From Fuerstiella marisgermanici (GTDB taxonomy: Bacteria > Planctomycetota > Planctomycetia > Planctomycetales > Planctomycetaceae), in the NCBI RefSeq assembly GCF_001983935.1, contig NZ_CP017641.1:682001-746000 (forward strand): a stretch of 64,000 bases of DNA, written 5' to 3'. Shown in pieces: positions 2,027 to 10,779 of this stretch. The position numbers were made by a program, and so were the translations under genes. Below the pieces are notes generated by a model. The model was not told the origin of the DNA. It was given only the letters and a program-made list of their open reading frames with translations, and did not search any database. The first letter of the stretch is position 1, and every line of letters begins with the position of its first letter.

Positions 2027-3304
2027 ATGCGGATTGCCATTATCGGATCAGGGATTTCCGGCCTCGTCGCGGCTCACAAATTGAGCGATGCGCACGAGGT
2101 GGTTGTATTTGAAGCGAACCGCTATGTCGGTGGCCACACGAATACGGTCGACGTGGAGCTCGACGGCGAATCACACGCGATCGACACCGGTTTCATCGTG
2201 TTTAACGACCGTACCTATCCCAACTTCTGTCAGCTGCTGGACGAACTTCAGGTCAAGTCGACTCCGACAGCGATGAGCTTCAGCGTGCGATCTGATCGCG
2301 AGAATCTGGAGTACAACGGCAGCTCTTTAAACGGTCTGTTTTGTCAGCGTCGGAATCTCGTTCGGCCTTCGTTTTACCGGATGGTCCGCGACATCATTCG
2401 GTTTAATCGTGAATCACCTAAGATTCTCGAGGGCGCTGACGGTGCCATGACCGTGGCGCAATATCTCAAAAGCTACGGATACTCTCGGCAGTTTGCCGAC
2501 CACTACCTGCTGCCGATGGGGGCTGCAATCTGGTCGTGCCCGACTGCGACGTTTGAGGCCTTCCCAATCCAGTTTATTGTCGCGTTCTATCGTAACCACG
2601 GACTTCTTAGCCTGAGTAACCGGCCAACCTGGAGAGTAATTAAAGGCGGTTCGAGGCAATATGTCGACGCGATCACGCGGAGGTTTCGCGGGGAGATACG
2701 CCTGCAGAATCCCGTGATGAACGTCACTCGCGCGAACGAATGTGTCAAGGTGACCACCCAGTCTCAGACGGAAGAATTCGACGAGGTTGTATTCGCCTGT
2801 CATAGCGATCAGGCTTTGTCGATTCTTGGAGGCAATGCGACGACTACCGAGGAAGTCGTTCTTGGGGCGATTCCGTACGAATCGAATACGGCAGTGCTGC
2901 ACACGGATGAGTCGGTGTTGCCTCAGTGCAAAGAAGCGTGGGCGAGCTGGAACTATCACGTACCCGTCGGCCCTGCGTCGAAGTCGACTCTGACGTATAA
3001 CATGAATATCCTGCAGCACATCAAGTCGAAGCACACATTCTGCGTCACACTCAACGAAGAACCGTCGCTCAACCCGGACAAGGTGCTCAGGACATTCCGG
3101 TACAGTCACCCCATCTTCACCATCGAACGCGAAGATGCTCAGCGGCGTCACGAAGAACTCATTCGGCAAAACCGCACATCTTTCTGCGGCGCGTACTGGG
3201 GGAATGGCTTCCATGAAGATGGAGTTAACAGCGGGCTGAAGGTGGCTCAAGCGTTTCAGCGAGAGCGGGAACAGACCTCAGTTAAGGGGATGTGCCGTGC
3301 ATAG
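2027..3304 (+). CDS. FAD-dependent amine-oxidase-fold oxidoreductase of lipid-modification operon
   Basis: 425 residues. The dinucleotide-binding motif GSGISG sits at residues 7-12, followed by an acidic strand end (VVVFEAN) and GGHTNTV, the signature of the NAD(P)/FAD-dependent amine-oxidase/desaturase-like superfamily. It opens a five-gene run with overlaps of 4-8 bp or a 4 bp gap, so it is certainly co-transcribed with the genes downstream. Flavoproteins of this type next to DUF1365 and cyclopropane-synthase-like genes are known in proteobacterial stress regulons, where the clusters act on unsaturated phospholipid acyl chains. The exact reaction here (desaturation or other oxidation of a methylated chain) is inference. 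Confidence 0.85.
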   Translation: MRIAIIGSGISGLVAAHKLSDAHEVVVFEANRYVGGHTNTVDVELDGESHAIDTGFIVFNDRTYPNFCQLLDELQVKSTPTAMSFSVRSDRENLEYNGSSLNGLFCQRRNLVRPSFYRMVRDIIRFNRESPKILEGADGAMTVAQYLKSYGYSRQFADHYLLPMGAAIWSCPTATFEAFPIQFIVAFYRNHGLLSLSNRPTWRVIKGGSRQYVDAITRRFRGEIRLQNPVMNVTRANECVKVTTQSQTEEFDEVVFACHSDQALSILGGNATTTEEVVLGAIPYESNTAVLHTDESVLPQCKEAWASWNYHVPVGPASKSTLTYNMNILQHIKSKHTFCVTLNEEPSLNPDKVLRTFRYSHPIFTIEREDAQRRHEELIRQNRTSFCGAYWGNGFHEDGVNSGLKVAQAFQREREQTSVKGMCRA

Positions 3305-4115
3305 CTGCATCTATGAAGGCACGGTCCGCCATCGCCGATTCCATGAGAAACATCACGAGTTTCAAAACCGCTTGTTTCTGATGTATCTCGATCTCGACGA
3401 ACTTTCGACGGTCTTTAAAGGCCGATGGTTTTGGTCAACCAGCCGCCCTGCTCTCGCACGTTTTCGTCGGGACCAATATCTGGGCGAAGCGGAAAAATCG
3501 TTGCCGGACTGCGTCAGAGATTTGGTGCAGCAGAAAACTGGTTATCGTCCCGAGGGGCCGGTTCGGCTGCTAACAAGCCTGCGATACTTCGGGTACCTTA
3601 TCAATCCGGTTAGCTTCTACTTCTGCTACAACGGCATGGGCGACCATGTTGAAGCAATCGTTGCAGAAGTGACTAATACGCCGTGGGGCGAACGGCACTG
3701 TTACGTGATCGACTCACGATCAGCAACAGATCAGACGTCGACGTCAAACGCCATTCGTGCCACCAACGCCAAGCAGTTTCATGTTTCGCCGTTCCTGTCG
3801 ATGGGCATGACGTATCACTGGACGATCCGTCCTCCTGGTGATCACTTATCGATTCATGTCGAGAACCGAGCTGAGTCCGAGCGAGCATTTGATGCGTCTT
3901 TGAGTCTCCGTCGACGGGAGATTACAGGCTTAAATCTTGCGAGGGCACTGGTCCGGTTCCCTTTCATGACGGGCCAAATTGCGGCCAGCATCTATTGGCA
4001 GGCACTTCGCCTCTGGTGGAAAAATGTTACCTTTTACCCGCATCCTGCGAAATCGCTCGCGGCAGACGCGATGAAGACCACTCAAACAATTGTTGGGACA
4101 GGACGGTCAAAATGA
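3297..4115 (+). CDS. DUF1365 family protein
   Basis: 272 residues, GTG start chosen because the product begins MHSCIYEGTVRHRRF, the standard opening of DUF1365. Conserved internal blocks are visible: RLLTSLRYFGYLINPVSFYFCY and EVTNTPWGERH, then KQFHVSPF. The start overlaps the flavoprotein stop by 8 bp and the stop overlaps the next ATG (ATGA), indicating translational coupling. The biochemical role of DUF1365 is not established; the family almost always accompanies a cyclopropane-fatty-acid-synthase-like methyltransferase and an amine-oxidase-fold flavoprotein, as here, so a part in acyl-chain modification is likely. Confidence 0.9.
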   Translation: MHSCIYEGTVRHRRFHEKHHEFQNRLFLMYLDLDELSTVFKGRWFWSTSRPALARFRRDQYLGEAEKSLPDCVRDLVQQKTGYRPEGPVRLLTSLRYFGYLINPVSFYFCYNGMGDHVEAIVAEVTNTPWGERHCYVIDSRSATDQTSTSNAIRATNAKQFHVSPFLSMGMTYHWTIRPPGDHLSIHVENRAESERAFDASLSLRRREITGLNLARALVRFPFMTGQIAASIYWQALRLWWKNVTFYPHPAKSLAADAMKTTQTIVGTGRSK

Positions 4116-5392
4116 ATTCAGCAGCAATGACTGCAGAACGTAACGAGATTGCTAATACACATTGCGCTGTTGATGGTGACTCATCATATGGCAACTGTGG
4201 CCAGCGGCGAGGTTGGGCGACCGGTGTCGTTCAGCAACTCGTTACGAGCCGCCTATCCGAATTGCAGGGAGGTCAGCTCTACCTTGACGATCAGTGCAAT
4301 CGTCACGTGCTGGGTACGAATGGCGTCGACGACTTAAACGCGACCGTTGTTGTTCGCGACGCAGACTTCTACTGGCGTTTGGCCACAGGTGGCAATCTCG
4401 GTGCAGCAGAATCATACCTCGATGGAGAATGGGACTGTGATGATCTAACGAGTCTGTTCCGCATCTTCTGTCGTAACATCGGTCGAGCGCAGCCAAACGC
4501 TGGATTGAACCGGCTGGTTCGTCTTGTCGGTCGCGCGAGGCACTGGAGGGCTCGAAATACGCCGGTCGGCAGCCGCAAAAACATTCAGGCCCACTACGAT
4601 CTTGGCAATGAGTTTTTCGAACTCATTCTTGATCCATCGATGATGTATTCTTCTGGCATCTATGAGACTCCTGACGCGACACTTGAGGACGCGCAGCTTA
4701 CTCGGCTGGATAGAGTTTGTACTGAGCTGGGCCTTCAACCTTCAGATCACCTTATCGAAATCGGCACCGGCTGGGGGGGGATGGCGATTCACGCCGCAAA
4801 GAACTTTGGCTGTCGCGTAACAACGACCACGATTTCAGAAAATCAACATTCCTACGCACTTCGACGCGTAGCTGAGGCGGGGCTTAGTGACCGCATCACG
4901 CTACTGAAGGAAGACTACCGCGACCTGTCCGGCAAGTACGACAAACTGGTTTCGCTTGAGATGGTGGAAGCCGTTGGGCCTCAGTTTCACGACACGTATT
5001 TTTCGAAGTGTGCAGAGTTGCTGAATCCCGGTGGACGGATGCTGCTGCAGGCGATTGTGATGCCGGAACAGCGCTACGGCGAGTACCTTAAGTCGATGGA
5101 CTTTATTCAAAAGTACATTTTTCCTGGCGGCAGCCTACCTTCAGTTTCTGCGATGCAGGCGTCGGTTGCGAAAACCTCAAGTATGCGGCTTCTGTCGATG
5201 AACGATTTCGCCGACGACTACGCTCGAACCCTGCGTGAGTGGCGGCGGCGGTTTCACAACCAGCTGGAGGCGGTTGCCAAGCTTGGTTACCCCGATCGGT
5301 TTGTTCGAATGTGGGACTACTACCTCGCCTATTGCGAAGCGGCATTCATGGAACGCGCGGTTGGCGTTGTTCATGCTGTTTGGGGGCGATAG
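4112..5392 (+). CDS. Cyclopropane-fatty-acyl-phospholipid synthase family methyltransferase (first copy)
   Basis: 426 residues from the ATG overlapping the DUF1365 stop. An N-terminal lipid-binding region (residues 35-130) is followed by the hallmark NIQAHYDLGNEFF (157-169), MMYSSGIY (177-184) and the SAM-binding loop EIGTGWGG (216-223); later blocks FSKCAELLNPGGRML and IFPGGSLPS match the family. Enzymes of this type transfer a methyl or methylene group from S-adenosylmethionine to the double bond of unsaturated acyl chains in intact phospholipids. Length is slightly above the usual 380-400. Whether the product is a cyclopropane or an internal methyl-branched or methyl-alkene chain cannot be told from sequence. 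The next gene starts 4 bp downstream. Confidence 0.9.
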   Translation: MNSAAMTAERNEIANTHCAVDGDSSYGNCGQRRGWATGVVQQLVTSRLSELQGGQLYLDDQCNRHVLGTNGVDDLNATVVVRDADFYWRLATGGNLGAAESYLDGEWDCDDLTSLFRIFCRNIGRAQPNAGLNRLVRLVGRARHWRARNTPVGSRKNIQAHYDLGNEFFELILDPSMMYSSGIYETPDATLEDAQLTRLDRVCTELGLQPSDHLIEIGTGWGGMAIHAAKNFGCRVTTTTISENQHSYALRRVAEAGLSDRITLLKEDYRDLSGKYDKLVSLEMVEAVGPQFHDTYFSKCAELLNPGGRMLLQAIVMPEQRYGEYLKSMDFIQKYIFPGGSLPSVSAMQASVAKTSSMRLLSMNDFADDYARTLREWRRRFHNQLEAVAKLGYPDRFVRMWDYYLAYCEAAFMERAVGVVHAVWGR

Positions 5393-5396
5393 TGCT

Positions 5397-6449
5397 ATGT
5401 CTTCGCTAGTCGTTCGAACATTGATGTCGGCCGCAGAAAAGGGGGCGCTACCGGATGCTGTGTGCCGTGCCGGGATCCGACGCCTGCTACGGAGTCGATT
5501 GCAGTCACTTAATACTGGCGACGTCGAATTGGAGGGCCAGCGATTCCGGAAGTTTATTGCAGACTGCCGCAACAGTGAGATCGCTGTGGTCCCCGAGCTT
5601 GCAAACGACCAGCACTACGAAGTGCCGGCACAGTTGTTCGAAAAAGTTCTGGGCGAGAACTTGAAGTACAGTTGCTGCGAGTGGACTGACGAAACGCAAA
5701 CACTCGATCAGGCGGAAGCCCGGGCGTTGGCAACGACTTGCGAACGAGCCGAGTTACAAGACGGCATGAGCATTCTGGAACTTGGCTGCGGTTGGGGATC
5801 ACTTTCCCTCTGGATGGCCCGCAAGTACCCGAATAGCCGGATTCTGGCGGTTTCAAACTCTGCGTCCCAGCGTTCGTATATCGAGCGTCGGGCGGAAGCG
5901 GCCGGAGTCAGAAACCTGACTGTGATTACCGCTGACATGAATGACTTTTCTGCGAGCGGTATGTTTGATCGCGTCGTTTCCATTGAGATGTTCGAGCACA
6001 TGCGAAACCACGAAGAACTGCTGCGGCGAATTTCCGGCTGGTTAAACCCGGACGGAAAGCTGTTTGTGCATATCTTTTGTCACCGCACTCACAGCTATCT
6101 GTTCGAATCCGTCGACGACCGCGACTGGATGGCTCGTCACTTTTTTAGTGGTGGTATGATGCCAAGCGAGAGTTTGCTCGCACACTACCAGACTCACCTG
6201 ACTCTGACTGATCGGTGGCGATGGAGCGGGAAGCACTATGAGCGAACCTGCAACGAGTGGCTAAAACGCCAGGACGCTAACGAAAATGAGCTTCTGAGTC
6301 TCTTTTCGCAGACGTACGGCGAAGAGAACGCAGTGATGTGGTTCAATCGATGGCGGATGTTCTTTATGGCGTGTGCCGAACTGTTTGGCTTTCGTGACGG
6401 CAATGAATGGCGGGTCGCTCATTACCTGTTCCAGAAGAGAACGCCATGA
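5397..6449 (+). CDS. Cyclopropane-synthase/coclaurine N-methyltransferase-like SAM methyltransferase (second copy)
   Basis: 350 residues. The ATG at 5397, 4 bp after the previous stop, gives the family's usual N-terminus. Motifs are DQHYEVPAQLFEKVLG (71-86), YSCCEW (91-96), SAM loop LELGCGWGS (127-135), and later MFEHMRNHEELL and FVHIFCHR. It is shorter than the first methyltransferase, lacks that protein's N-terminal domain, and resembles the CFA-like branch that includes coclaurine N-methyltransferase and bacterial relatives of unknown substrate. Being in one operon with a bona fide CFA-type enzyme suggests a second methyl transfer or a different acyl position. Its stop overlaps the next ATG (ATGA). 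Confidence 0.85.
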   Translation: MSSLVVRTLMSAAEKGALPDAVCRAGIRRLLRSRLQSLNTGDVELEGQRFRKFIADCRNSEIAVVPELANDQHYEVPAQLFEKVLGENLKYSCCEWTDETQTLDQAEARALATTCERAELQDGMSILELGCGWGSLSLWMARKYPNSRILAVSNSASQRSYIERRAEAAGVRNLTVITADMNDFSASGMFDRVVSIEMFEHMRNHEELLRRISGWLNPDGKLFVHIFCHRTHSYLFESVDDRDWMARHFFSGGMMPSESLLAHYQTHLTLTDRWRWSGKHYERTCNEWLKRQDANENELLSLFSQTYGEENAVMWFNRWRMFFMACAELFGFRDGNEWRVAHYLFQKRTP

Positions 6450-7234
6450 CTGAAATCCTGCTCTGGAACGCGGCTGTTGTGGCAACGCTGATGACAGGAA
6501 CCTGGTTAGTCAGTTTAGTCCTCCACAACGTCAGTATCGTCGACATTATTTGGGGCCTGGGTTTTGTCGCGATTGCGTGGACAACCTGGATGATCGCTCA
6601 TTCTGACAACAGGTCGCTGCTGCTCCCAACTTTGACCACCGTTTGGGGACTGCGGTTAAGCGGGCATCTGGCGTGGAGAAACCACGGGCAGCCGGAAGAT
6701 TTTCGTTACCGATCGATGCGCGAACGCCACGGTAAGCGTTTTTGGTGGGTCAGTGCCATCACCGTGTTCCTTCTTCAGGGAATCGTCATGTGGGTCGTCT
6801 CGCTGCCGATTCAGGCATCTCAATGCGGCTCCTTCCAGCATCAGGCACTCGTGCTCTTTGGCTGTGCGGTCTGGTTAGTGGGCTTGATCTTCGAGTCCGT
6901 CGGAGACTTGCAACTGGCGAGATTTCGGGCAAATCCTGAAAATTCCAACGCTGTAATGGACCAGGGGCTATGGCGGTTCACACGTCACCCCAACTATTTC
7001 GGCGATTTTTGTGTGTGGTGGGGAATCTTTCTGATCAGCTACGGCTGCGGTGCGGCCATTGCCACAGTGGCCAGTCCGGTGTTGATGTCTATACTCCTGA
7101 TGAAGTTTTCTGGAGTCGCATTGCTAGAGAAAACGCTGGTCAGCCGCCGTGAAGGCTATGCTGACTACGTTCAACGGACGAGCGCGTTTTTCCCGATGCC
7201 AGTGCGAAATCGGAATTTCGCGGAGAATCAGTGA
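6446..7234 (+). CDS. DUF1295 integral membrane protein (steroid 5-alpha-reductase fold)
   Basis: 262 residues. The ATG at 6446 overlaps the upstream stop by 4 bp. At least five hydrophobic segments are visible. The C-terminal block GLWRFTRHPNYFGDF..WWGIFL is the conserved NADPH/substrate region of DUF1295 and related sterol/isoprenylcysteine enzymes. Members sit in the inner membrane and are presumed reductases of unsaturated lipids. Within this operon it would act after the flavoprotein and methyltransferases on the same acyl chain; this is inferred from context. It is the last gene of the tightly coupled run; the next gene begins 177 bp later. Confidence 0.88.
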   Translation: MTEILLWNAAVVATLMTGTWLVSLVLHNVSIVDIIWGLGFVAIAWTTWMIAHSDNRSLLLPTLTTVWGLRLSGHLAWRNHGQPEDFRYRSMRERHGKRFWWVSAITVFLLQGIVMWVVSLPIQASQCGSFQHQALVLFGCAVWLVGLIFESVGDLQLARFRANPENSNAVMDQGLWRFTRHPNYFGDFCVWWGIFLISYGCGAAIATVASPVLMSILLMKFSGVALLEKTLVSRREGYADYVQRTSAFFPMPVRNRNFAENQ

Positions 7235-7411
7235 ACCGCCGGCGCGAGTGTAAACATGGAATTGCGCCCCGCGGCTGCGAACGACAGCATCGTCTACGAG
7301 AGGACCAATGCCTAGCCGGAACTGTTTCGCCGCTTACCGATGTGGCCTGATGGTTTGAAACAACGTAAATCGAGACACTCTTAGTGGCACCACCATCCTG
7401 AAACGGTCCCC

Positions 7412-8293
7412 ATGATTCAGACAGACATGATCGATTCGCCCGTCTTCTACATCGAGCACGAAGATTTTTCGTCGGCCGACGAAGATTCATTGTTGTACTG
7501 CGAGTCCGTAGACAGCATCTACAGCGACCGTATAGCCTCTGAGGAACTTGCAATTGACGGTGGTGGTGATTACGAGCTGCTGAACGATCTGCCGCTGCTG
7601 TCACCGACCGGTGAAACATTTCTGTTCCGGAAGATGAACTACTTAAAGTGCCGGGCTGAAAAGGTCAGGCTAAAACTGGTGTCGGGCGAATCCACGGCGG
7701 ATGAAGAGGAATTTGCAAATTTACTTGCGGATGCCGAAGCTGTTCGAAATCACATCGCAGAGTGCAACCTGCGGCTGGTGATCTCAATCTCGCGGAAATT
7801 CTCAACGTCATCCTGTGATTTCGATGACCTGATGAGCGAAGGAAACGAAATTCTGCTCAAGGCGATTGACAAGTTTGATTTTTCGCGAGGATTCCGCTTC
7901 AGCACTTACGCCACTCATTCTGTTCAGAGGCACTTCTACCGGTACACTCAGCGTCGCCATAAGCGGAATTCGACTGAAGTTAGATCGACTGTTGAGTTGC
8001 TTAACGAAGTTGCTGAGTCTGAAGCAGATGCGGCTATCAAACAATGGGTGCAGGAAGAACAGCGCATGACAGCGCTCATCGCTCGCATGGCCGAACGGCT
8101 TGACGAACGAGAGCGAGCAGTCGTCACTGGGAGGTTCGGTCTGGGGCATGGCGGCAGTGTCAAAACGCTGCGGGAATTGGCGGGCGACCTTAATCTTTCC
8201 AAAGAACGCGTCCGGCAGCTTCAGATGGCGGCCGTGGATAAGTTACGTGACTTCTTTGACGAGCTGCACTCTGAATTTGCAGCGGTGTCGTAG
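7412..8293 (+). CDS. Sigma-70 family RNA polymerase sigma factor
   Basis: 293 residues. Region 2 is clear: CNLRLVISISRKF, FDDLMSEGNEILLKAIDKFDFSRGFRFSTYATHSVQRHF, followed by the basic TQRRHKR. Region 4 is RpoD-like: LDERERAVVTGRFGL..KTLRELAGDLNLSKERVRQLQ. There is no large 1.1 region and no obvious anti-sigma partner next to it. The presence of region 4 with the RpoD-type helix-turn-helix makes it a group 2/3 factor rather than ECF. It stands between the lipid-modification operon and the redox fusion gene in the same orientation, so it may control one or both; that is inference from position. Confidence 0.88.
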   Translation: MIQTDMIDSPVFYIEHEDFSSADEDSLLYCESVDSIYSDRIASEELAIDGGGDYELLNDLPLLSPTGETFLFRKMNYLKCRAEKVRLKLVSGESTADEEEFANLLADAEAVRNHIAECNLRLVISISRKFSTSSCDFDDLMSEGNEILLKAIDKFDFSRGFRFSTYATHSVQRHFYRYTQRRHKRNSTEVRSTVELLNEVAESEADAAIKQWVQEEQRMTALIARMAERLDERERAVVTGRFGLGHGGSVKTLRELAGDLNLSKERVRQLQMAAVDKLRDFFDELHSEFAAVS

Positions 8294-8334
8294 CATCACA
8301 AAATTCGAAGGCTCCAGATGCGGAAGTCCTGCTT

Positions 8335-9366
8335 ATGAATGCTCCGAAAGTCACACACGACATCGTCCCGCCGACCACCAACGCACAGCCATGGATGCGG
8401 ACTGCGCTACTGCTGGCGGCGGGTTATAATATCGTGTGGGGGGCGATCGCAATTGTCGCACCATTGGCCATCTTTCGGATCACTGGTGCCAAACCGCTGC
8501 CCGCCTACCCAGAACTCTGGCAGTGCATTGGGATGATTGTTGGCGTTTATGGCGTCGGTTACGCGATCGCGGCACGAGCGCCTTTTATTCACTGGCCGAT
8601 TGTTCTTGTAGGTCTGCTGGGAAAGATTTTGGGGCCGGTTGGTTTTCTGCTGTCGATGAGTTCCGGGAGGTTGCCGGCAAAGCTTGGGTGGACAATTCTG
8701 ACCAATGACCTGATTTGGTGGATCCCGTTTACACTGATCCTTTGGCATGCAGCCCGATTTCATCAAAGTCGGCGAGAAGAAATTACCGTTCGGACACCGA
8801 CTCGTAAAATTGACCCGTTGGGACGCATGGTCAGTCAGCGCGGAGCGACTCTCATCGAGCTTTCGCGGCGGAAGCCTGTCCTCGTCGTGTTTCTCAGGCA
8901 TTCCGGATGCACGTTTTGTCGAGAAGCCGTGTCTGACATTTCGGCGGTCCGTCAGCAAATTGAGGGCGCCGGTACTCAAATCGCATTCGTCCACATGGGC
9001 CAGCAGGAACCTGTGGAGTTGATGGAGCGGTACCGTCTGACCGATGTTCATTCTTTCCGAGACCCGACTTGTAGCCTATACGATACGTTTGGTTTGAAGC
9101 TCGGCTCCTTCAACGAGTTGCTGGGGCCGCGTGTCTGGTGGCGAGGTACGCTGGCTTGGATGTCAGGACACACCTCCGGCGGATTCGATGGAAACGTATT
9201 CAGGATGCCAGGCGTGTTTCTGATGCACAACGGAGAGGTTGTACGAGGTTTCCGCCACCGGTCGGCGGCCGAGCGTCCCGACTACGTGAGGCTGTCGACT
9301 CTTCCGGACGCGGCAGAGCCTCCGCGTTGTGAAACGTCTGATGGTGTCACGGTTTCGATCCCGTAG
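8335..9366 (+). CDS. Membrane domain fused to peroxiredoxin-like (AhpC/TSA_2, SelL/PrxL2-like) domain
   Basis: 343 residues in two parts. Residues 20-145 hold about four hydrophobic segments (LLLAAGYNIVWGA, IGMIVGVYGVGYA, IVLVGLLGKILGPVGF, LIWWIPFTLIL). Residues 165-330 form a thioredoxin-fold domain with strand VLVVFLRHSGCTFCREA, giving a CxxC redox pair, then FRDPTCSLYDTFGL and PGVFLMHNGEVVRGFRH, the layout of the AhpC/TSA_2 (SelL/PrxL2) family. It follows the sigma factor by 41 bp. The membrane domain would put a thiol-redox domain at the bilayer surface, which fits reduction of lipid or other peroxides. The topology is not certain. Confidence 0.8.
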   Translation: MNAPKVTHDIVPPTTNAQPWMRTALLLAAGYNIVWGAIAIVAPLAIFRITGAKPLPAYPELWQCIGMIVGVYGVGYAIAARAPFIHWPIVLVGLLGKILGPVGFLLSMSSGRLPAKLGWTILTNDLIWWIPFTLILWHAARFHQSRREEITVRTPTRKIDPLGRMVSQRGATLIELSRRKPVLVVFLRHSGCTFCREAVSDISAVRQQIEGAGTQIAFVHMGQQEPVELMERYRLTDVHSFRDPTCSLYDTFGLKLGSFNELLGPRVWWRGTLAWMSGHTSGGFDGNVFRMPGVFLMHNGEVVRGFRHRSAAERPDYVRLSTLPDAAEPPRCETSDGVTVSIP

Positions 9367-9610: not shown

Positions 9611-10501
9611 TCAGGTCGAGGTGATGGCGAAGGTGGTCGGGGCGGCTCCCGTCTGTCGAGCTCGAACCGAAGGCTGCATCGCCGCGAACTCATTCGGTGT
9701 CTGGTAGTCCAACGCGCTGTGCGGACGAACTTCGTTGTACTGACGTTGAAATTCCTTCGTCATCTGTACGGCATCGCGAACACTTTCAAACTCTTCCACG
9801 TTCAGAAATTCATCGCGAAGCTTCGAATTGAAACTCTCGGAATACCCGTTCTGCCACGGCGATCCCGGCTCGACGTACAGCGCCGAGACGCCTGTTTGTT
9901 TCAGCCACTTGCCAATCGCCTTCGCGATAAACTCTGGGCCGTTGTCGCTGCGAATGTGATTGGGCACACCGCGAGCAGCGATCAATTCACACAGCGTGTC
10001 GATCACGTCGTCGGCTTTGATACTGCGAGAAACTTTCAACGCAACGCACTCCCGAGTGAATTCGTCAACAACGGTCAGCCACTTCAACTGAGTTCCATTC
10101 GTTGTGTAGTCAAACACAAAATCCCACGCCCATACGTCGTTCTTTCCCCGCGATCGGTGAACATGACAAGCGTTTTTGCTGCCGCCAGTGCCACGCCGCT
10201 TCTTCGTTCGTCGACGAACTTTCAACCCTTCGCGACGCCAAAGACGATACACTCGCTTCCTATTCACCACGAATTCTTCGCGACGAAGAAGACGACAGAT
10301 ACGCCGATAACCAAATCGCGGATGCTCACGAACCAGCTCCAGCATTCGCTTCACCAACGCCGCCTCATCATCGCGAACAACGGGTTCACGACGATGAACC
10401 GAACGATGCTGACCAACCGTTCGGCACGCGTGACGTTCCGAAACGTCGAACTTCTCCTGCACATGTTTGACGGCCTCGCGTTTCCGGGAGACCGTCAGAA
10501 G
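9611..10501 (-). CDS. IS3-family transposase OrfB (DDE integrase domain)
   Basis: The reading frame is open from just after the orfA slippery site, entering as LLTVSRKREAVKHVQ, which matches the usual beginning of OrfB in IS407-type elements. A GTG at 10462 is the first conventional start and gives 283 residues. An HTH_21-like segment (FGYRRICRLLRRE) is followed by the rve catalytic core: WAWDFVFDYT, TVVDEFTRE, RSDNGPEF and NGYSESF, which supply the DDE residues. It catalyses cut-and-paste or copy-out of the element as the OrfAB fusion. The frame is intact and its key residues are present, so the element may still be active. Confidence 0.9.
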   Translation of the reverse strand, partial: LLTVSRKREAVKHVQEKFDVSERHACRTVGQHRSVHRREPVVRDDEAALVKRMLELVREHPRFGYRRICRLLRREEFVVNRKRVYRLWRREGLKVRRRTKKRRGTGGSKNACHVHRSRGKNDVWAWDFVFDYTTNGTQLKWLTVVDEFTRECVALKVSRSIKADDVIDTLCELIAARGVPNHIRSDNGPEFIAKAIGKWLKQTGVSALYVEPGSPWQNGYSESFNSKLRDEFLNVEEFESVRDAVQMTKEFQRQYNEVRPHSALDYQTPNEFAAMQPSVRARQTGAAPTTFAITST

Positions 10502-10779
10502 TTTCCCTCCGCGATCTCCTTCAGCATTGCCTTGTCGAGTTCCGCTTCCGCAAGCAGCTTCTTAAGCCGAGCGTTCTCAACTTCCAGTTCCTTCAGACGC
10601 TTTGCTTCCTCGGCCTTCATCCCGCCGTACTGCTGACGCCAGCGATGATACGTCGCTTCACTGACAGCCAGCGATTGAACAACCTCACCGAGCGACTTGC
10701 CGCTCGTCAGCATCGCATCCGCATCACGAAGCTTCCGAACAATCTGCTCCGGAGTGTGACGTTCACGTTTCTTCGACAT
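10495..10779 (-). CDS. IS3-family transposase OrfA (HTH_Tnp_1)
   Basis: 94 residues. N-terminal HTH: HTPEQIVRKLRDAD..GKSLGEVVQSLAVSEATYHRWRQQYGG, then a leucine-zipper-like coiled coil (LKELEVENARLKKLLAEAELDKAMLKE). This is the DNA-binding and multimerisation subunit of IS3-family transposase. Its stop lies three bases beyond the slippery heptamer GGGAAAC, so ribosomes can slip -1 into orfB to make the full transposase. Confidence 0.9.
   Translation of the reverse strand: MSKKRERHTPEQIVRKLRDADAMLTSGKSLGEVVQSLAVSEATYHRWRQQYGGMKAEEAKRLKELEVENARLKKLLAEAELDKAMLKEIAEGNF
10501..10507 (-). promoter_or_regulatory. Programmed -1 frameshift slippery heptamer
   Basis: On the minus strand, G GGA AAC in the orfA frame is followed by TTC TGA. 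It fits the X XXY YYZ rule. After a -1 slip the codons read CTT CTG ACG GTC, which is exactly the start of the OrfB open frame. Such sites are the standard way IS3-family elements make the OrfAB fusion. Confidence 0.8.

Follow-up and report, generated by a model that had tools for sequence, protein, structure and literature searches.

An operon for predicted furan fatty acid synthesis in the planctomycete Fuerstiella marisgermanici, linked to an RpoD/RpoS-like sigma factor, a SelL-related redox protein and a promoter-like site

The enzymes of furan fatty acid synthesis have been biochemically assigned in Rhodobacter and Rhodopseudomonas. UfaM is a methylase, UfaD is a desaturase of the flavin adenine dinucleotide (FAD) type, and UfaO, a DUF1365 protein, serves the O2-dependent formation of the furan. 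FufM converts the monomethyl to the dimethyl furan, and Rhodobacter makes its monomethyl furan without FufM (PMC7380195). FufM is reported to be 37.87% identical to LIME1 of Arabidopsis, and Arabidopsis homologues have been named for UfaM-UfaD, as one fused protein, and for UfaO (PMC10940516). The sigma-E regulon of R. sphaeroides yields furan lipids and in turn requires them to be activated by singlet oxygen (PMC6852236). Light induces phrB and ufaM of Pseudomonas mendocina 25- to 33-fold (PMC9758184). The SAK1-dependent singlet-oxygen genes of Chlamydomonas include CFA1, CFA2 (there also named coclaurine N-methyltransferase), DUF1365, DUF1295, DUF2177, SOUL and fasciclin genes (PMC4067076). 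Here we describe an operon with genes of these kinds in Fuerstiella marisgermanici. The window, that is, the whole stretch of 64,000 nucleotides (nt) that was analysed, comprises bases 682001-746000 of an 8,920,478-bp single-contig genome.

Seven colinear genes on the + strand occupy positions 2027-9366 of the window (five enzymes, a sigma factor and a redox protein), each where an earlier note on this DNA had placed it, and a promoter-like site precedes them. The start codons of the enzyme genes are our choice among the in-frame codons.

1964-1993, + strand: conserved promoter-like site CTCGTCA-N14-TCTACAACG, beginning 63 nt before the ufaD ATG
2027-3304, + strand: ufaD-like gene, FAD amine-oxidase-fold oxidoreductase, predicted methyl-fatty-acyl desaturase (PF01593, 92.8 bits; ATG 2027)
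3297-4115, + strand: ufaO-like gene, DUF1365 protein, predicted furan-forming monooxygenase (PF07103, 272.8 bits; GTG 3297)
4112-5392, + strand: methyltransferase 1 (MT1), UfaM-like, predicted first methylation (PF02353, 280.5 bits; ATG 4112)
5397-6449, + strand: methyltransferase 2 (MT2) of the FufM/LIME1/coclaurine N-methyltransferase (NMT) kind, predicted second methylation (CMAS superfamily, 150.4 bits; ATG 5397)
6446-7234, + strand: DUF1295 membrane protein, steroid-5-alpha-reductase-like, partner of MT2 (PF06966, 233.9 bits; PF02544, 33.3 bits; ATG 6446)
7412-8293, + strand: sigma-70 family factor with regions 2 and 4, RpoD/RpoS-like, not of the extracytoplasmic function (ECF) type (PF04542, PF04545)
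8335-9366, + strand: SelL-related redox protein with a four-helix membrane part and a thioredoxin/PRXL2-like domain with CTFC (NF040769, 130.2 bits)

Neighbouring enzyme genes overlap by 8, 4 and 4 nt, except that a 4-nt gap separates MT1 from MT2. Their earlier description as five overlapping genes is thus nearly exact, since three of the four junctions overlap. The sigma gene starts 177 nt past the DUF1295 gene, and the redox gene 41 nt past the sigma gene. We propose, with a probability of about 0.73, that the operon makes a methylated, probably dimethylated, membrane furan fatty acid under photo-oxidative stress, and that a non-ECF sigma factor reads the site TGGYCA-N14-TCTAMAA. This proposal builds on computed gene families, on the conservation of the cluster, on the sigma-redox pair and on the shared site.

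Judged by their sequences, genes 1 to 4 match the kinds of the furan fatty acid pathway, all of which are present in the order D-O-M-M2: UfaD, UfaO, a methylase resembling UfaM and another of the FufM kind. The ufaD product is 40-45% identical to five FAD proteins of proteobacterial ufa clusters, and its gene stands beside the DUF1365 (UfaO) gene, the arrangement by which the furan pathway is recognised. The DUF1365 gene is single-copy in the genome. Given the match to the known pathway, a dimethyl-furan fatty acid is the predicted product. Because UfaD, UfaO, UfaM and FufM have been assigned biochemically in Rhodobacter and Rhodopseudomonas (PMC7380195), the two methylases can be explained as adding the first and then the second methyl group to a furan fatty acid. 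The enzyme families bear out the earlier reading of a lipid-modifying operon of the furan or methylated fatty acid kind, whereas its view that the product is not inferable finds no support.

It could be objected that the product is a cyclopropane or 10-methyl-type fatty acid rather than a furan, MT1 being a cyclopropane synthase with a FAD partner, like the plant fusions. MT1 shares 36.4% identity with E. coli Cfa (and 37.5-43.6% with four methylases of proteobacterial clusters), its best solved relatives are cyclopropane fatty acid (CFA) synthases, and CFA-type enzymes of plants that have a FAD domain at the N terminus make cyclopropanes. However, in a tree of 103 methylases built by a quick method, MT1 clusters with UfaM-position proteins, whose genes stand next to ufaD and ufaO, and away from E. 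coli Cfa (Shimodaira-Hasegawa approximate likelihood-ratio test, 96). C139 and H266 are active-site residues of E. coli Cfa. In its numbering, planctomycete MT1 rows have S at C139 in 44/51 and Q at H266 in 51/51, and UfaM-position rows have S in 7/8 and Q in 8/8; the window MT1, with S and Q, lacks the active-site pair. We also know of no role of DUF1365 in cyclopropane synthesis, and we regard this alternative as improbable. In these comparisons, UfaM-position cluster proteins stand in for RSP2144 and RPA2569 (UfaM), and proteins of the coclaurine-NMT kind for RPA0924 (FufM).

Both methyltransferases had earlier been called CFA-type. MT1 is a CMAS methylase; for MT2 the label does not quite fit, coclaurine N-methyltransferase being the best solved relative at 280 bits and a CFA synthase reaching only 112 bits. 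The identity of MT2 is 45.5-51.3% to three proteobacterial methylases linked to DUF1295, compared to 29.9% to Cfa. It falls in a separate clade with five DUF1295-linked proteobacterial methylases and coclaurine NMT (support 100; the plant chain is a long branch). Its reading as a cyclopropane synthase was rejected on the grounds of family and clade. C139 is kept in 30/36 MT2 rows and H266 in 36/36; the window MT2 has both residues of Cfa yet falls on the coclaurine-NMT side.

Conservation was followed in 118 relatives, the genome itself counted. DUF1365 is found in 56 of them, and the resulting 56 ufaO loci are the window and 55 others, some of which are cut by contig ends. Near ufaO lie ufaD in 51 loci, MT1 in 51, DUF1295 in 43 and MT2 in 37, with all five enzyme genes together in 33. 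The run ufaD-ufaO-MT1 is colinear in 48, window included. MT2 adjoins DUF1295 in all 35 loci holding both; DUF1295 occurs without MT2 in 8 loci and MT2 without DUF1295 in 2. The gene association at the window locus goes beyond chance. Queries for DUF2878, DUF3833, chalcone isomerase, MsrP, TspO, MFS and ChrR each gave 0/56. Acinetobacter sp. WY4, Cupriavidus, Mesorhizobium terrae and Rhizobium tropici have plasmids on which the five enzyme genes are likewise clustered, the last two clusters with an ECF sigma and ChrR as well. Shinella HZN7 has a run sigma-ChrR-DUF1295-MT2 with DUF1365 nearby. The planctomycete enzymes are predicted to be a new lineage of the known furan pathway. This would extend furan fatty acid synthesis to Planctomycetota, account for the paired methyltransferases and turn a "function unknown" into a testable lipid.

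MT2 and DUF1295 might nevertheless stand outside the furan pathway, as co-regulated enzymes of another lipid (an amine headgroup, an isoprenoid or a sterol-like compound). N-methyltransferases are the closest solved relatives of MT2, and DUF1295 resembles steroid reductases and phospholipid methyltransferases. The eight loci with DUF1295 and no MT2 nearby, the MT2-DUF1295 pair of Rhizobium tropici, which is divergent from ufaDOM, and the monomethyl furan that Rhodobacter makes without FufM point the same way. Against this stand the identity of FufM itself to LIME1, as given above, and the retention by MT2 of H266 and Y317 of Cfa, both of which the coclaurine enzyme lacks. LIME1 is presumably a member of the coclaurine-NMT kind. 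On balance, this separate role for MT2 and DUF1295 seems rather unlikely to us.

Control of the operon may involve two further genes. The best NCBIfam models for the window sigma are RpoS and RpoD, with scores far under their cut-offs, and its sequence gives four strong matches in the genome, including itself and a long protein read as RpoD. An ECF sigma with an adjacent ChrR is not what the window holds. The single ChrR query found none in the 56 ufaO loci, and one ECF query hit 1/56 (L073). The earlier claim of a non-ECF sigma in the place of ECF/ChrR finds support in this RpoS/RpoD-like profile. The redox protein passes the SelL-related model NF040769 (130.2 bits, cut-off 120). Its AlphaFold2 model, made from 16 sequences, has a mean predicted local distance difference test score of 77.9 and a predicted template modelling (TM) score of 0.61, with four membrane-type N-terminal helices and a thioredoxin fold. 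The best fold match in the PDB is human prostamide/prostaglandin F synthase (E 8.8e-7, TM score by target 0.74), followed by ResA and peroxiredoxin Q; by sequence, the E-value to prostamide/prostaglandin F synthase is only 0.76.

The best 80 of 505 SelL-related relatives were kept as named loci and are a biased part for that reason. CxFC is present in 79 of these 80 (78 by pattern, one by eye), L263 lacking it, and a sigma gene lies within the fetched flank in 24. The order of the seven genes recurs exactly in L185 and, with an inserted CarH-like gene, in L226. The sigma-redox pair is divergent from ufaD in L207, L222 (the L043 locus), L233 and L246 (the L076 locus, Blastopirellula marina DSM 3645). 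L231, titled Verrucomicrobia, has ufa genes and the redox gene without a sigma. Other neighbours in the 80 loci are hits of two photolyase/cryptochrome queries (15 and 5) and polyketide-cyclase-like (11), CarH-like (10) and fasciclin (8) genes. The sigma and SelL-related genes recur as a pair, in many cases together with ufa, photolyase or CarH-like genes. Of the 56 ufaO loci, 9 have a sigma gene nearby, 4 a SelL-related gene, each with a sigma, and 7 a DUF2177 gene. The proposed association of sigma, redox protein and operon thus recurs, and the two genes do adjoin the enzymes elsewhere, but both are present in only 4/56 ufaO loci; the seven-gene set is a minority arrangement among them.

A small membrane protein family is also seen near the SelL-related gene in 40/80 named loci (e.g. 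L260, 9900-10400, + strand). Directly downstream of the redox gene of the window, at 9611-10779 on the minus strand, two genes resemble, by eye, an IS3-type transposase pair. An Rfam search of the window at gathering thresholds gave no match. Two further features of the genome (G000) are the following.

3397082-3400049 (L165, 8059-11052), minus strand: second sigma-SelL pair, at ~3.397-3.399 Mb, with a SpoIIE-type phosphatase gene before it and an Fpg/Nei-type DNA glycosylase gene after it
1949134-1950603 (L303, L304): class II (TIGR00591-like) photolyase gene, following a polyketide-cyclase-like gene (by eye)

A PF00875 search had suggested a genome without photolyase. This was wrong, and the TIGR00591-type relative was found by protein query.

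The sigma and lipid genes share a promoter-like site. In the divergent sigma/ufaD regions, the same sequence appears on both strands, spotted by eye and then tested by pattern and matrix; the window site is one base off the consensus TGGYCA-N14-TCTAMAA. A first motif search for shared 5+5-mers was weak (at most 4/47 loci, 2-3 in shuffles) and was set aside, and a sigma-70 consensus scan scored below shuffles and was uninformative. A weight matrix was built from 7 sites of 4 seed loci, with a threshold of 1% of per-sequence dinucleotide shuffles. It matches before ufaD in 15/50 loci (11/46 without the four seed loci), one of the 51 ufaD upstream regions (L046) being too short and left out. The site lies 61-125 nt from the ufaD start in 14 loci and 222 nt in one. 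When one locus at a time is left out, the window site scores 20.5 bits and is equalled by 0/1000 dinucleotide shuffles, as are those of L076 and L085. In held-out loci the site precedes ufaD in 5/6, the miss being L231, with no sigma in the fetched stretch. At 14 bits, 17/26 sigma-bearing SelL loci have the site, compared to 5/58 sigma-less ones (Fisher 1.6e-7). Duplicates and training loci were removed from this comparison, a match anywhere in the locus counts, and its matrix also includes sites from six further ufaO loci. The second sigma operon of the same genome has a 22.8-bit site before its phosphatase gene, at genome positions 3400023-3400049. Through this site, a non-ECF sigma gains a predicted promoter and targets. 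At 7068-7095, inside the DUF1295 gene and ending 317 nt before the sigma gene, stands TGGCCA-N16-TATACT, which resembles the site.

Exact copies of the consensus were found at 21 places in 13 chosen genomes. Nine precede ufaD, a sigma of this kind, a lone MT2, a photolyase relative or a SOUL gene, and in the other 12 no such gene was seen. The site stands before ufaD in G113, G075 and G003 and before the sigma gene in G113, G075 and G007. It also precedes a lone MT2 (L270), the photolyase relative (L274; TIGR00591 382 bits, cut-off 550) and the SOUL heme-binding gene (L288, G007 contig 258; PF04832 133 bits; gene start uncertain). Across all 8.92 Mb of the genome, SGYCA-N14-TCTAMAA matches at 3 places, the ufaD site among them (backwards control, 8), and a still looser pattern includes both the ufaD and the second-sigma sites.

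Several findings weigh against our proposal. The 21 exact places compare with 35 in the backwards control, and the exact pattern has 0 places in the window genome, whose ufaD site departs from it by one base. In the same genome, 14 places fit the looser pattern, with 32 in the control; several lie inside reading frames, and at the 12 that are not the ufaD or second-sigma site no gene could be recognised as one of lipid metabolism or photo-stress (judged by eye, one by family search). Because none of the three patterns exceeds its backwards control, the genome-wide search was rejected as a regulon finder. The seed site of L043 is weak when left out (84/1000 shuffles). Only 7/21 held-out loci, two of the seven near-duplicates, have the site before the sigma gene, and held-out sigma genes divergent from CarH or cyclase genes mostly lack it. 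Around the photolyase gene of the window genome, no site reaches 10 bits. The site is absent from all five ufa loci that have a sigma and no SelL-related gene (L059, L069, L075, L080, L082), with 4.1 bits at best; the sigmas of L059, L075, L080 and L082 fall elsewhere in the sigma tree, and that of L069 is outside it. The window sigma lies in a part of the tree apart from the sigmas that supply most training sites, to which the second sigma is nearer. In 36/56 ufaO loci there is neither a sigma nor a CarH-like gene nearby. Finally, the orthology of MT1 to UfaM and of MT2 to FufM is predicted from family, clade and reported identities.

The sigma tree has 52 rows. In it, the sigmas of L114, L185, L168, L151 and L161 form a group with the window sigma (100/100); those of L114, L185, L168 and L151 are SelL-linked, and the L151 sigma is that of L173. 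The second sigma of the genome is placed, with weak support (81/61), close to the sigmas of B. marina, G075, L197 and L233. Because the site accompanies sigmas from both parts of the tree, it may be read by either sigma or by both. Should the window sigma read it, the position of its gene in the operon would make a positive loop.

The adjacent genes may also not control the operon at all, this being left to another sigma or to light repressors of the CarH/LitR kind. Genes with MerR-HTH and B12-binding domains (CarH/LitR-like) lie near 15/56 ufaO loci (L033, L035, L042, L044, L049, L059, L061, L065, L066, L069, L078, L080, L081, L082 and L084), as against 9 for the sigma. They pass the Pfam domain cut-offs in part, and one scored 44 bits where the NCBI CarH cut-off is 400. 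A sigma or a CarH-like gene lies near 20/56 ufaO loci, and light control of planctomycete furan-lipid clusters through CarH/LitR-like neighbours is possible. The site is also found before ufaD in loci without a nearby sigma, and the second sigma-SelL pair of the same genome has its own strong upstream site. On the other hand, a search run without positive control found no CarH-like gene in the window genome, and sigma, SelL and ufa genes are linked again in other arrangements and outside the family, in Blastopirellula marina. Assuming 2 sigmas in each genome and 20 kb out of 7 Mb, we estimate that chance would place a sigma near ~0.3 of the 56 loci, and 9 are seen. Control from elsewhere is a doubtful reading, though one to be kept in mind.

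The mechanism that we infer for the proposed furan-lipid operon extends from substrate and product to the stress, the reading of the site by one of the two sigmas and the role of the redox protein. MT1 would methylate a cis-monounsaturated acyl chain of a membrane phospholipid, the FAD protein (UfaD) would introduce a second double bond, and the DUF1365 protein (UfaO) would insert an oxygen derived from O2, closing the furan. MT2 would then attach the second methyl group, with the assistance of DUF1295. If oleate (18:1 delta-9), a common chain in planctomycetes, is the native substrate, the furan is predicted to span C8-C11. Transcription would begin at TGGYCA-N14-TCTAMAA, read by a non-ECF sigma paired with the membrane-anchored SelL-related protein, the likely input or detoxifying partner. 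As to the stress, earlier described as oxidative or membrane stress, neighbours and homology favour light and singlet oxygen over heat or H2O2.

Furans add singlet oxygen to give endoperoxides, and prostaglandin F synthase reduces endoperoxides. The redox partner now named has a fold like that of a lipid endoperoxide reductase, and from its fold and gene place it may act on a furan endoperoxide. A more speculative scheme, which we hold to be unlikely as a whole, is that the planctomycete sigma circuit evolved independently of RpoE-ChrR and is wired to its own furan-lipid endoperoxide fuse, with a toolkit shared with green algae. The furan fatty acid would trap singlet oxygen as an endoperoxide, and the SelL-related protein would sense or reduce it and so free the sigma. 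The freed sigma would restart the furan operon and its own gene from TGGYCA-N14-TCTAMAA. The ufa genes, MT2, DUF1295, DUF2177, SOUL, fasciclin and photolyase would then form one photo-oxidative toolkit.

In literature searches that cover subscription papers thinly, nothing was found on SelL, on furan fatty acids in planctomycetes, on DUF1365 with photolyase, or on furan enzymes joined with a non-ECF sigma, a redox partner and a promoter; for DUF1295 with singlet oxygen, only the Chlamydomonas SAK1 work (PMC4067076) appeared. The gene kinds named above from that work all occur within the bacterial loci, next to them or downstream of their site, matched by gene kind alone, whereas the Chlamydomonas system is eukaryotic and SAK1-controlled. 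Singlet-oxygen gene kinds of an alga are thus linked to compact bacterial clusters, which makes photo-oxidative roles of DUF1295, DUF2177, SOUL and fasciclin testable. In the LitR/CarH regulons of Pseudomonas (PMC9758184) and the MerR/ChrR system of Vibrio (PMC5241685), a ufaM-type gene and photolyase are under light control. The CarH-like genes beside planctomycete ufaO loci resemble this, but none was found in the window genome.

The furan pathway of Rhodobacter sphaeroides and Rhodopseudomonas palustris (PMC7380195) has the same FAD protein, DUF1365 protein and CFA-family methylase, with a distant second methylase. In the window, by contrast, all these genes and DUF1295 form one operon under another regulator, with a product predicted from the genes. 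The ECF11 RpoE-ChrR regulon (PMC6852236) likewise encodes its sigma with furan-lipid genes and has one kind of promoter ahead of both its sigma gene and its lipid operon, as planctomycetes do in some loci. Among the ECF-type plasmid clusters compared, several have ChrR and one has an anti-sigma factor. Unlike these, the planctomycete sigma is RpoD/RpoS-like, ChrR was not found, the partner is a membrane thioredoxin-fold protein, and the promoter is TGGYCA-N14-TCTAMAA. The arrangement would follow the logic of R. sphaeroides sigma-E with unrelated parts. Sigma, redox partner and promoter are predicted to form a new version of the furan-lipid response under sigma control, in which a non-ECF photo-oxidative circuit seems to replace the proteobacterial controller and to do the job of RpoE-ChrR.

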